A DNA stretch of 64,000 nucleotides from Spongiibacter sp. IMCC21906 (lineage in GTDB: Bacteria > Pseudomonadota > Gammaproteobacteria > Pseudomonadales > Spongiibacteraceae), in NCBI RefSeq assembly GCF_001010805.1, contig NZ_CP011477.1, positions 2,061,001-2,125,000 of the forward strand. The letters run 5' to 3'. Shown here piece after piece: positions 44,400 to 47,088 of the stretch. Position 1 is the first letter of the stretch. Every line of letters starts with the position of its first letter. The translations under genes and the position numbers were made by a program. A model generated the notes under the pieces. That model was given only the letters and a program-made list of their open reading frames with translations, was not told the origin of the DNA and searched no databases.

Positions 44400-44528
44400 A
44401 GCGGTTGTTTAACTTTGCCATGCCGAATATTACAGGTGATTCTCAAACATCAGCACCACATATACGTCACCAGCGCACACTTGTTGAATACTGCAGACGA
44501 TTCTCAATCATCAATATCACATAGACAT

Positions 44529-44644
44529 CGTCATCCCGGACGCCATCAGGCGATCCGGGATCCAGCTTCGGAGCAAGGTATTTACTAAGGCAGAGGTGTA
44601 TTGCACTGAGGCTGACTGGATACCGGCTTAAAGCCGGTATGACG
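44529..44644. repeat. REPIN copy 1
   Basis: Begins CGTCATCCCGG and ends CCGGTATGACG, a terminal inverted repeat. Inside are hairpin TCCCGGACGCC / GGCGATCCGGGA and hairpin ACCGGCTTAAAGCCGGT, separated by about 50 nt and joined by inward-facing ATCCAG / CTGGAT. Confidence 0.85.
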
Positions 44645-44795
44645 ATGTGGTGAAGGGGTGTTGAGTATAGGCATTACCAACGCACACTTGTGGAATACGG
44701 AGGCGATTCTCAATCGTCGACATTACATATACATCACCAGCGCGCACTTGCGGAATACAGCTGCGATTCGTCAATACCAGAAGCACATAGTTTCT

Positions 44796-44911
44796 CGTCA
44801 TCCCGGACGCCAACAGGCGATCCGGGATCCAGCTTCGGAGTTAGGTATGTACTAAGGCAGAGGTGTATTGCACCGAGGTTGACTGGATACCGGCTTAAAG
44901 CCGGTATGACG
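44796..44911. repeat. REPIN copy 2
   Basis: 116 bp, same orientation as copy 1. The first hairpin loop reads CAACAGG in place of CATCAGG. Confidence 0.85.
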
Positions 44912-45062
44912 AGATGGTGGAGGAATGTTGATATAGGCATTACCACCGCACACTTGCGGAATACAGCTGCCATTCGTAACTACCAGACGCACATATAGGT
45001 CACCAACGCGCACTTGTGGAAGACAGCAGGCGATTCGTCAATACCAGACGTACATAGTTTCT

Positions 45063-45178
45063 CGTCATCCCGGACGCCATCAGCCGATCCGGGATCCAGC
45101 TTCGGAGCAAGGTATGTACTAAGGCAAAGGTGTCTTGCACCGAGGTTAACTGGATACCGGCTTAAAGCCGGTATGACG
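45063..45178. repeat. REPIN copy 3
   Basis: 116 bp. The first hairpin carries CATCAGCCG in place of CATCAGGCG, which opens one pair of the inner stem. Confidence 0.85.
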
Positions 45179-45328
45179 AGGTGGTGGAGGGGTGCTGAGT
45201 ATAGGCATTCCCAACGCGCACTTGCGGAATACAGCTGCCATTCGTAACTACCAGACGCACATATAGGTCACCAACGCGCACTTGTGGAATACAGTGGCGA
45301 CTCTCAATCATCAACTTCGCATATACAC

Positions 45329-45444
45329 CGTCATCCCGGACGCCATCAGGCGATCCGGGATCCAGCTTCGGAGTAAGGGATTTACTAAGGCAGAGGTGTA
45401 TTACACCGAGGTTGACTGGATACCGGCTTAAAGCCGGTATGACG
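45329..45444. repeat. REPIN copy 4
   Basis: 116 bp with both hairpins intact. Confidence 0.85.
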
Positions 45445-45593
45445 AGATGGTGGAGGAATGTTGATATAGGCATTACCACCGCACACTTGTGGAATACAGC
45501 TGCCATTCGTAATTACCAGACGCACATATAGGTCACCAACGCGCACTTGTGGAATACAGTGGCGACTCTCAATCATCAACTTCGCATATACAC

Positions 45594-45709
45594 CGTCATC
45601 CCGGACGCCGTCAGGCGATCCGGGATCCAGCTTCGGAGCAAGGTATTTACTAAGGCAGAGGTGTATTGCACCGAGGTTGACTGGATACCGGCTTAAAGCC
45701 GGTATGACG
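45594..45709. repeat. REPIN copy 5
   Basis: 116 bp with both hairpins intact; the loop reads CGTCAGG. Last copy before the tRNA-Ser terminator. Confidence 0.85.
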
Positions 45710-45778
45710 AGGTGGTAGAGGGAGATGAGTGCCATGAGGTAGAGCCTGTTATCGCATGGCTAGGATCGCGGAATAAAT

Positions 45779-45813
45779 AAAAAAGCCCCGGTCTGGCGAC
45801 CGAGGCTTTTTGT
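45779..45813 (-). terminator. Terminator of tRNA-Ser
   Basis: AAAAGCC-C-CGGT / ACCG-A-GGCTTTT stem with one internal mismatch and a T-run on the tRNA-sense strand. It lies 5 bp past the encoded CCA. Confidence 0.8.
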
Positions 45814-45817
45814 TTAA

Positions 45818-45907
45818 TGGCGGTGAGGGAGGGATTCGAACCCTCGAACAGTTTGACCCGTTACACACTTTCCAGGCGTGCTCCTTCAGCCACTCGGACA
45901 CCTCACC
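45818..45907 (-). tRNA. tRNA-Ser (anticodon GGA)
   Basis: A 90-nt class II tRNA with encoded CCA. Acceptor GGTGAGG / CCTCACC, D-arm with GAGTGGCTGAAGGAG, anticodon loop CTGGAAA giving GGA, a long variable arm and T-arm GTTCGAATC. The body is very close to the E. coli serine GGA tRNA. Upstream (higher coordinates) lies an array that repeats this gene's first 13-14 nt. Confidence 0.97.
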
Positions 45908-46579
45908 AAACACATTGTCGTCGCCAGTGGCGTGTTGGGAGTTACCCCACCTGCGAGTGCTGCGCACTCGTTCCTTCAGCCATTGACTCGCTCCTGTCGG
46001 AGCTCGGGGCTGCGCCCCGTTGTCGCGAAGCGCCAACGCCCAAACCCGCTGCGCGTGTTTGTCGGACACCTCACCAAACACATTGTCGTCGCCAGTGGCG
46101 CGTTGGGAGTTACCCCACCCTGCGAGCGCTGCGCACTCGTTCCTTCAACCATTGACTCGCTCCTGTCGGAGCTCGGGGCTGCGCCCCGTTGTCGCGAAGC
46201 GCCAACGTCTAAACTTGCTGTGCAAGTTTGCCGGACACCTCACCAAACACATTGTCGTCGCCAGTGGCGTGTTGGGAGTTACCCCACCTGCGAGTGCTGC
46301 GCACTCGTTCCTTCAGCCATTGACTCGCTCCTGTCGGAGCTCGGGGCTGCGCCCCGTTGTCGCGAAGCGCCAACGTCTAAACTTGCTGTGCAAGTTTGCC
46401 GGACACCTCACCAAACTCATTGTCATCGCCAGTGGCGTGTTGGGAGCTACCCCACCTGCGAGCGCTGCGCACTCGTTCCTTCAGCCATTGACTCGCTCCT
46501 ACCGGAGCTCGGGGCTGCGCCCCGTTGTCGCGAAGCGCCAACGTCTAAACTTGCTGTGCAAGTTTGTCGGAACCTCACC
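45908..46579 (-). repeat. Four 168-bp tandem repeats carrying the tRNA-Ser 5' end
   Basis: Units are 45908-46075, 46076-46244, 46245-46412 and 46413-46579 (168, 169, 168, 167 bp). Each unit's high-coordinate end is GGTGAGGTGTCCG in tRNA sense (GGTGAGGTTCCG in the last), the first bases of the adjacent tRNA. Each also contains GAGTC-AATGGCTGAAGGA, a near copy of the tRNA D-arm. Between and after these lie hairpins: AAACTTG/CAAGTTT, GGGGCGCAGCCCC, GCTCC/GGAGC and CGAGTG/CACTCG. Base changes between copies tend to keep the stems paired. Because 168 is a multiple of three, a long periodic open frame (45878-46645, plus strand) results; it is not a gene. Confidence 0.9.
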
Positions 46580-46690
46580 AAAACCTGTATTTTGTCGTTC
46601 GCTAAAATGTTGGTTTTGCTCCAACAGCAAGTGTTATGCACTTGATTATTTAGCCAATGACGCGCTCCTGTGGGAGCCTTGCTAAACCGT
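46580..46690 (-). repeat. Degenerate fifth repeat unit upstream of the tRNA-Ser array
   Basis: Sequence has diverged, but the order of structures is the same in tRNA sense: GCTCC-CACA-GGAGC, then GTCATTGGCT (D-arm remnant), then CAAGTG/CACTTG at 46628-46644, then GTTGG/CCAAC, then CGACAAAATACAGG just before GGTGAGG. The last replaces CGACGACAATGTG of the other units and could hold a promoter -10 region (inference). Confidence 0.6.
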
Positions 46691-47088
46691 TGGCGGCACA
46701 ATTTTGCTTAGCGGTGCGCCCCGATTTAAGGGCGGCTACTCTATAGCTTTTTGATATGGAAGGCAATTGCCGGTGGTTAAAAATCGTTTTGCTAGATCTT
46801 CCTCCAAAAGGCGGTGTCGCAAAGTATCTAACGATTAGGGCTATATTGGTGCGATGGCGGTTTAATTGGTGCGAGCCGTGTCGTAGTTGAGAAGACATTG
46901 TGGTTGGCTATGGCAACAATTGCCTTAGTCAAAGCTATTTCGGCGTGGTTTTTACCGTGATGACGTTGGTTTGTGCATGTTAACTCATATACATTGAGCC
47001 TTGCTTTGTCTGGAACAGTTTTTGCTCCACACTGAGTTGAATATATAAGGTGGTATTGTTTGTGCGACTCTCGCTTGAAGGAATGTAT
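46691..47088. other. Spacer with no supported gene
   Basis: About 400 bp of mixed composition. A minus-strand open frame (46650-46898) runs into the degenerate repeat and shows no family features, signal or ribosome-binding site. I see no clear promoter or RNA gene. Confidence 0.5.

Follow-up and report, generated by a model that had tools for sequence, protein, structure and literature searches.

Hairpin units with copies of the tRNA 5' end in the putative leader of tRNA-Ser(GGA) of Spongiibacter sp. IMCC21906: a possible 5' counterpart of RtT

Why should a tRNA gene be preceded by several copies of its own beginning? The question is raised by a locus in a 64,000-nucleotide stretch of Spongiibacter sp. 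IMCC21906 DNA (contig NZ_CP011477.1, positions 2,061,001 to 2,125,000; hereafter the window), in which the minus-strand gene for tRNA-Ser(GGA) at 45818-45907 (ARAGORN; Rfam RF00005, 53.3 bits) is abutted on its 5' side by a tandem array at 45908-46579. The four units of about 168 bp described in the original prediction were confirmed by TRF (168-bp period, score 1236, 45894-46582) and by alignment of the units, which are 167-169 bp long, show pairwise identities of 92.2-98.2%, and are likewise read on the minus strand: u1 (168 bp) at 45908-46075, u2 (169 bp) at 46076-46244, u3 (168 bp) at 46245-46412 and u4 (167 bp) at 46413-46579. Each opens, in the tRNA sense, with a copy of the first nucleotides of the tRNA, 14 nt long in u1 (46062-46075), 13 nt in u2 (46232-46244) and u3 (46400-46412) and one base short in u4 (46567-46579), and also contains the D-arm-like AATGGYTGAAGGA. 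Both of these copies had been correctly recognised beforehand, but the distance between them, earlier put at about 100 bp, is about 78 bp in alignment columns. What had been taken for a diverged fifth unit is, by unit alignment, a 3' half-unit only, lying on the minus strand at about 46580-46680 and lacking the tRNA 5' copy; it shares 48-52% identity with the units over the aligned length and merges into the leader and putative promoter. A single unit used as query against the whole genome returned no copies beyond u1-u4 at E <= 0.001, and an Rfam search over the units found nothing except tRNAs at gathering score, with no credible match up to E 5. In a distant search of a plasmid collection, none of 94 records spanned 80% of the query, and 20 of the 94, those listed, matched the tRNA part only. 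Other repeats lie in the same window: a second tandem array at 44457-45721, beyond the tRNA terminator, has a 267-bp period in 4.7 copies and contains GTCATCCCGGA...TCCGGGATCC inverted repeats, no tRNA copy being seen in it by eye; degenerate repeats of 22-bp period occupy 127-449; and 728-778 is a perfect run of TGAGGC x 8.5.

Does the array belong to the tRNA transcript? A search with a -10 pattern picked out a putative minus-strand promoter at 46738-46766, TTGCCT-17 nt-TAGAGT followed by the GC-rich AGCCGCCC, and a computed scan placed an intrinsic-terminator-like hairpin 3' of the tRNA, at 45780-45811 on the same strand. The -10 part is present upstream in all 16 Ser(GGA) loci examined (15 from the genus, including this one, and one from G018, which belongs to another genus of the same family), as judged with a search pattern built from these same Ser loci; a general consensus promoter scan scored no promoter at 46738-46766. 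The -10 part stands 45-97 bp from the tRNA in five loci that lack units, 210 bp from it in G006, where no unit was recognised, and 177-836 bp from it in ten loci with units, the window having the figure of 836. Because the promoter-like motif sits upstream of the array, the array is probably transcribed together with tRNA-Ser(GGA), as a leader of approximately 825 nt.

Of 18 genomes of the genus, that of IMCC21906 included, 17 yielded the Ser(GGA) locus, which was not found in G003. Nine of the 17 have 5' units (G000, G001, G005, G008, G009, G010, G011, G015 and G017), and none were seen at the Ser loci of the other eight (G002, G004, G006, G007, G012, G013, G014 and G016). The original prediction had looked to close relatives to keep the array, and this expectation failed, there being no 5' unit beside a normal tRNA-Ser in those eight genomes; one of them, G014, stands nearest to the window's genome (97/99) in a tree made from one gene and leaving out G004. 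Because no 5' unit was seen in eight of the 17, the unit must be regarded as dispensable. In the same one-gene tree G002 and G011 are sisters (support 100/100), and they differ at this locus by exactly one whole unit. The units are of two related kinds. Type B, that of the window, occurs in G000, G001, G005 and G009; type A, of 125-129 bp and opening with as many as 22 nt from the tRNA start, occurs in G005, G008, G010, G011, G015, G017 and G018. One and the same tRNA-Ser carries differing unit types in different species. Identity among type B units is 92.2-98.2% within a genome and 66.3-80.9% between genomes; for type A the corresponding ranges, 95.3-99.2% and 60.2-97.6%, overlap.

If the leader is made as RNA, its hairpins may be expected to leave a trace in the way the units change. 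The base changes singled out earlier were all verified: CGAGTG/CACTCG becomes CGAGTG/CGCTCG in u2 and u4 and takes the form CAAGTG/CACTTG in the remnant, and AAACTTG/CAAGTTT becomes AAACACG/CGGGTTT in u1. The accompanying claim that the stems persist despite base changes is borne out across species. In type B (seven units, which represent only four species) 96.0% of cells are paired, and 10 of 50 pairs, in a structure predicted on the same alignment, have changed on both sides, against a shuffled mean of 3.8 that reached this figure in 0 of 500 trials and against 0-4 in slid versions. In type A (11 units, seven species) 97.6% are paired, likewise in a structure predicted on its own alignment, and eight cells have changed on both sides, against 2.0 when shuffled (0/500); the number of both-side-changed pairs in type A, three, was matched by 68 of 500 shuffles. 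A measure of further pair types gave no excess over shuffles in type B (244/500) or type A (475/500). The 5' units of tRNA-Cys, of which 12 of 13 were taken for alignment A4, are 95.7% paired, with four both-side-changed pairs against 1.0 in shuffles (1/500), again for structures predicted on the alignment itself; alignment A1 took one or two units per locus. Type A units keep both sequence and pairing across two genera.

Inside the Ser units the tRNA-end copy is itself paired, in a helix rich in G-U, and its partner strand is kept in types A and B. Since the first structure had come from the tRNA strand, helices were also predicted without G-U; at these, G-U types outnumber A-C types by 4-5 to 1 in type B and by 3 to 0 in type A, 7-8 to 1 in total, an excess to which the C-to-T bias of transcribed strands could add. 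Among the 18 Ser units, all but one, from G001, have a sense fold more stable than the antisense fold, as have all 13 Cys units, in some by a small margin. The predicted leader hairpins, then, covary across species and fold better in the tRNA sense. The selection for an RNA of tRNA orientation that had originally been suggested is in keeping with the covariation, with the sense fold, with the excess of G-U over A-C types and with the promoter-like motif, but the covariation draws on few lineages.

The rtT repeats of E. coli had been put forward as the closest known analogue, and the choice is apt: the hairpin core seems to be shared, and RtT-like 3' elements are found elsewhere in the same genome. 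The passages of PMC4986893 that deal with RtT cite it as a by-product of the E. coli tyrT operon, reported in 1991, that may take part in the stringent response; the release of RtT RNAs from many tRNA operons is already stated there, as are two Actinobacillus RtT RNAs upstream of tRNA-Asn and tRNA-Lys that were seen on northern blots. Among the open-licence papers listed, none dealt with repeats bearing tRNA 5' ends by its title or the start of its abstract. Like RtT, the present units stand in tandem beside a tRNA gene and are of about 170-180 bp (167-169 bp in the window, 178 bp in E. coli), and, as in the E. coli tyrT-tyrV repeat (rttR), every unit is made up of a copy of a tRNA end and a chain of hairpins. 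The difference is that RtT has the 3' end of the tRNA and lies downstream, whereas the units in the window have its 5' end and lie upstream; the RF00391 model, for which the cut-off is 45 bits, gave no match at 45700-46900 up to E 5. The array is best read as a 5'-end variant of the RtT kind that falls outside RF00391 by that family's own test.

Elements with the orthodox polarity are not far away. The E. coli tyrT repeat and the 3' units encountered here are built to one plan: a stem that closes on the copied tRNA 3' end is combined with a palindrome of the T-arm and a series of hairpins, and the junction comes directly after TTCGA or TTCG. The annotated E. coli rttR RNA terminates at the CCA with which its first copy of the tRNA end closes. 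With the Rfam RtT model the 3' units of tRNA-Ser in G021 scored 52.1, 50.0 and 49.4 bits, over the cut-off, and those in G006 and G004 were matched under it. The model matches 22 of 145 relatives at E 0.01, nine of them over the cut-off and the genome of IMCC21906 not among them, and of 14 controls E. coli only. Thirty RtT loci were fetched, some of them from one array: 19 adjoin a gene for tRNA-Ser, Lys, Tyr, Arg, Gln or Pro and repeat 12-19 nt of its 3' part, five have a tRNA without an exact 12-nt copy, and six have no tRNA in the locus. In 10 of 13 3' units, which were hand-picked and include several from the same kind of tRNA, the stem strand shows a strictly better fit to its own tRNA than to the others, and the observed sum was reached in 0 of 20000 permutations.

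Nor is tRNA-Ser alone in having such copies. An exact-copy scan of the flanks of the 37 tRNA genes of the IMCC21906 genome found end copies at three, on the 5' side of Ser and Cys and on the 3' side of Gln; the tRNA-Cys array comprises 3 x 117 bp, and that of tRNA-Gln has, besides its 3 x 175 bp, a fourth unit that is damaged. Cys 5' units occur also in several other genomes of the genus and in G018. The same scan, in which near-identical tandem tRNA-Met genes were counted as tRNAs and not as end copies, revealed end copies at 3 of the 35 tRNA genes of G006, at 4 of 37 in G018 (a count that includes a Lys copy of 13 nt and a Cys copy starting from tRNA nt 8) and at 1 of 61 in G120. It misses decayed elements, among them one at the tRNA-Met of IMCC21906 that was later caught by the core model described below. 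In G001 and G007 the T-stem of tRNA-Gln is one base pair off that of IMCC21906, and both the copied strand and the strand that pairs with it follow the change.

What the 5' units and 3' elements have in common was sought with a model made from 12 cores of 3' elements only and run over the window and 20 loci. Each unit of the array was matched on the minus strand, u1 at 46003-46061 (12.0 bits, E 0.19) and u2, u3 and u4 at 46172-46230, 46340-46398 and 46508-46566 (13.8 bits and E 0.06 each). These are the top four matches in the window, the next having 7.3 bits; singly they are weak, and they are copies of one another. Among other 5' units, those of G001, G005 and G009 gave E values of 9e-4, 0.24 and 0.36. 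In a search of the IMCC21906 genome, in which 150 of 1092 first-look candidates were scored, seven matches came under E 1e-4 (one at Met, two by 5S genes and four in the Gln array), and the Ser units had E values of 1.7-5.5. On this comparison a core seems to be common to the 5' units and the 3' elements. Its hosts extend to 5S RNA: the genome has two 5S genes, each with an RtT-like core downstream (L254, about 947381; L255, about 2715283), both cores coming after CCATGTGA, and then follow 17 nt of the 5S 3' end in one and 9 in the other. All 18 genus genomes have core matches at E 0.01, 94 in total. Of the 31 examined, several of which come from one array, 24 have a tRNA or 5S gene on the same strand within 350 bp upstream and seven do not, one of the seven (L267) having been read at a wrong offset. 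In G019 and G020, from another genus of the family, four core-like stretches (L153-L156) lie in loci without a tRNA and are flanked, by eye, by inverted repeats of the CCCTCACCC/GGGTGAGGG type; therefore the core would seem to move or to be reused, and the hairpins may come with a mobile repeat. The core at L268 in G004 runs into a Ser-type 3' end and has no tRNA within 1.5 kb of it; about 17 kb away there is a weak tRNA-Ser-like match, as if an island stood between.

It might be supposed that the units serve to leave the tRNA undisturbed by its long leader. Static folding lends this idea no support: in seven of ten loci an acceptor stem as good as the native one, or better, was obtained with over half of the shuffled leaders, most of all in G017 (38/40) and G018 (39/40). 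The result is due in part to a near-degenerate swap among identical 5' copies, and so carries little weight. A long stretch exactly antisense to the host tRNA was dismissed as a general rule, significance being confined to the Cys unit (17 nt, 0/200 shuffles) and Tyr (10 nt, 1/200) and lacking in Ser A (18/200), Ser B (126/200) and Gln (108/200). The Cys unit tested (L105, from the IMCC21906 genome) is exactly antisense over 17 nt to nt 41-57 of tRNA-Cys, and the last 12 nt are invariant across the 12 aligned Cys units.

A more active role would be that of a cis regulator of tRNA-Ser maturation, in which the 5' copy of a unit competes for the 3' strand of the acceptor stem and a two-state fold meters or delays RNase P. 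The predicted fold does join a unit 5' copy to the tRNA 3' strand in G011, G015, G017 and G018, the true 5' strand being then predicted, in G011, G015 and G018, to occupy the unit's own partner strand; and both unit types, as noted, retain the G-U-rich strand with which the 5' copy pairs. With identical 5' copies, however, the two states are bound to come out near-equal in energy. The probability of the normal acceptor stem is 0.96 in G001, 0.56 in G005 and 0.49 in G010, neither of the two predicted states is formed by the window's own leader, and static folding takes no account of folding during transcription. We consider such regulation unlikely.

The same observations might be met without any work for the RNA to do. 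On a neutral or selfish explanation, a palindromic mobile core would have been amplified by slippage between the tRNA-end repeats, its pairing a by-product of palindromes and gene conversion and its RNA idle. The greater likeness of units within than between genomes, clear in type B and overlapping in type A, is of the kind expected, as are the single whole unit that separates G002 from G011, the absence of units from 8 of 17 genus genomes and the dispersed core-like copies of G019 and G020. Such neutrality accords poorly with the keeping of type A sequence and pairing between two genera, and with both-side pair changes in excess of shuffles and G-U types in excess of A-C types; we regard it as a possible, though on present evidence doubtful, account of the array. 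There is a resemblance to BIME/REP elements, both being hairpin-rich repeats and core-like copies occurring in the tRNA-free loci of G019 and G020; members of a repeated (BIME) cluster are said to resemble rtT in a passage of PMC2965389. The units in the window differ in holding a matched copy of the end of the adjoining tRNA, and dispersed copies were not found in the IMCC21906 genome, where the unit search returned the four units alone and the core matches under E 1e-4 (150 of 1092 candidates scored) are the seven by Met, Gln and 5S. That the array was left by a site-specific integrase with tRNA ends as attachment sites is very improbable. The joining of tRNA-end copies at the D-loop or T-loop, the gain or loss of a whole unit between G002 and G011, and the G004 core with a Ser-type 3' end some 17 kb from a weak tRNA-Ser-like match might all be put down to such an enzyme, but attachment sites are not usually formed by tRNA 5' ends, an integrase gene would not fit into units of 117-187 bp, and a Pfam search of ten proteins chosen from among the ORFs at 42-52 kb (one of them without any match) found no integrase or transposase family. 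Loop junctions are also shared with circularly permuted tRNA genes, for which PMC3978253 gives half-gene junctions in the D-loop (20/21) and the TPsiC-loop (59/60) among others; here, in distinction, the tRNA gene is intact and the end copies are additional to it.

The reading that we favour, and hold to be moderately probable, is that tandem amplification of a leader element of tRNA-Ser(GGA) produced the array, which would be a 5' counterpart of RtT and is most likely co-transcribed with the tRNA. Its leader position, its fold in the tRNA sense and its kinship with the 3' elements are supported by the comparisons above; what had been observed at the outset is partly confirmed, and the interpretation then placed on it partly supported. 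Three parts would make up each unit: the copied tRNA 5' end, a multi-hairpin core and what remains of the leader. A mobile core may have entered a tRNA-end copy behind a GA dinucleotide of the D-arm or T-loop; the first repeat could have come from a duplication of which one breakpoint fell within the tRNA gene; and unequal exchange would keep the unit copies alike. With less assurance, RNase P would cut off the folded leader at the true 5' end and perhaps also at the copied ends, to yield RtT-like RNAs.

It is tempting to go further and to envisage a Gammaproteobacterial class of small, mobile, RNA-forming elements, in which a core inserted after a GA dinucleotide uses a matched copy of the host's 5' or 3' end, from a tRNA or 5S RNA, as a processing site, and is released by the host's maturation enzymes; the array in the window would then be the 5' form, freed unit by unit by RNase P. 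This wider proposal is tentative, and we think it somewhat unlikely as it stands. G011 and G002, a natural pair of sisters that stand one element apart before the same tRNA, would allow the effect of a unit to be tested. If the proposal were true, the 5' mirror form, and the presence of the core at many tRNAs and at 5S RNA, would recast RtT as just one form taken by a broader element that makes use of the ends of stable RNAs.
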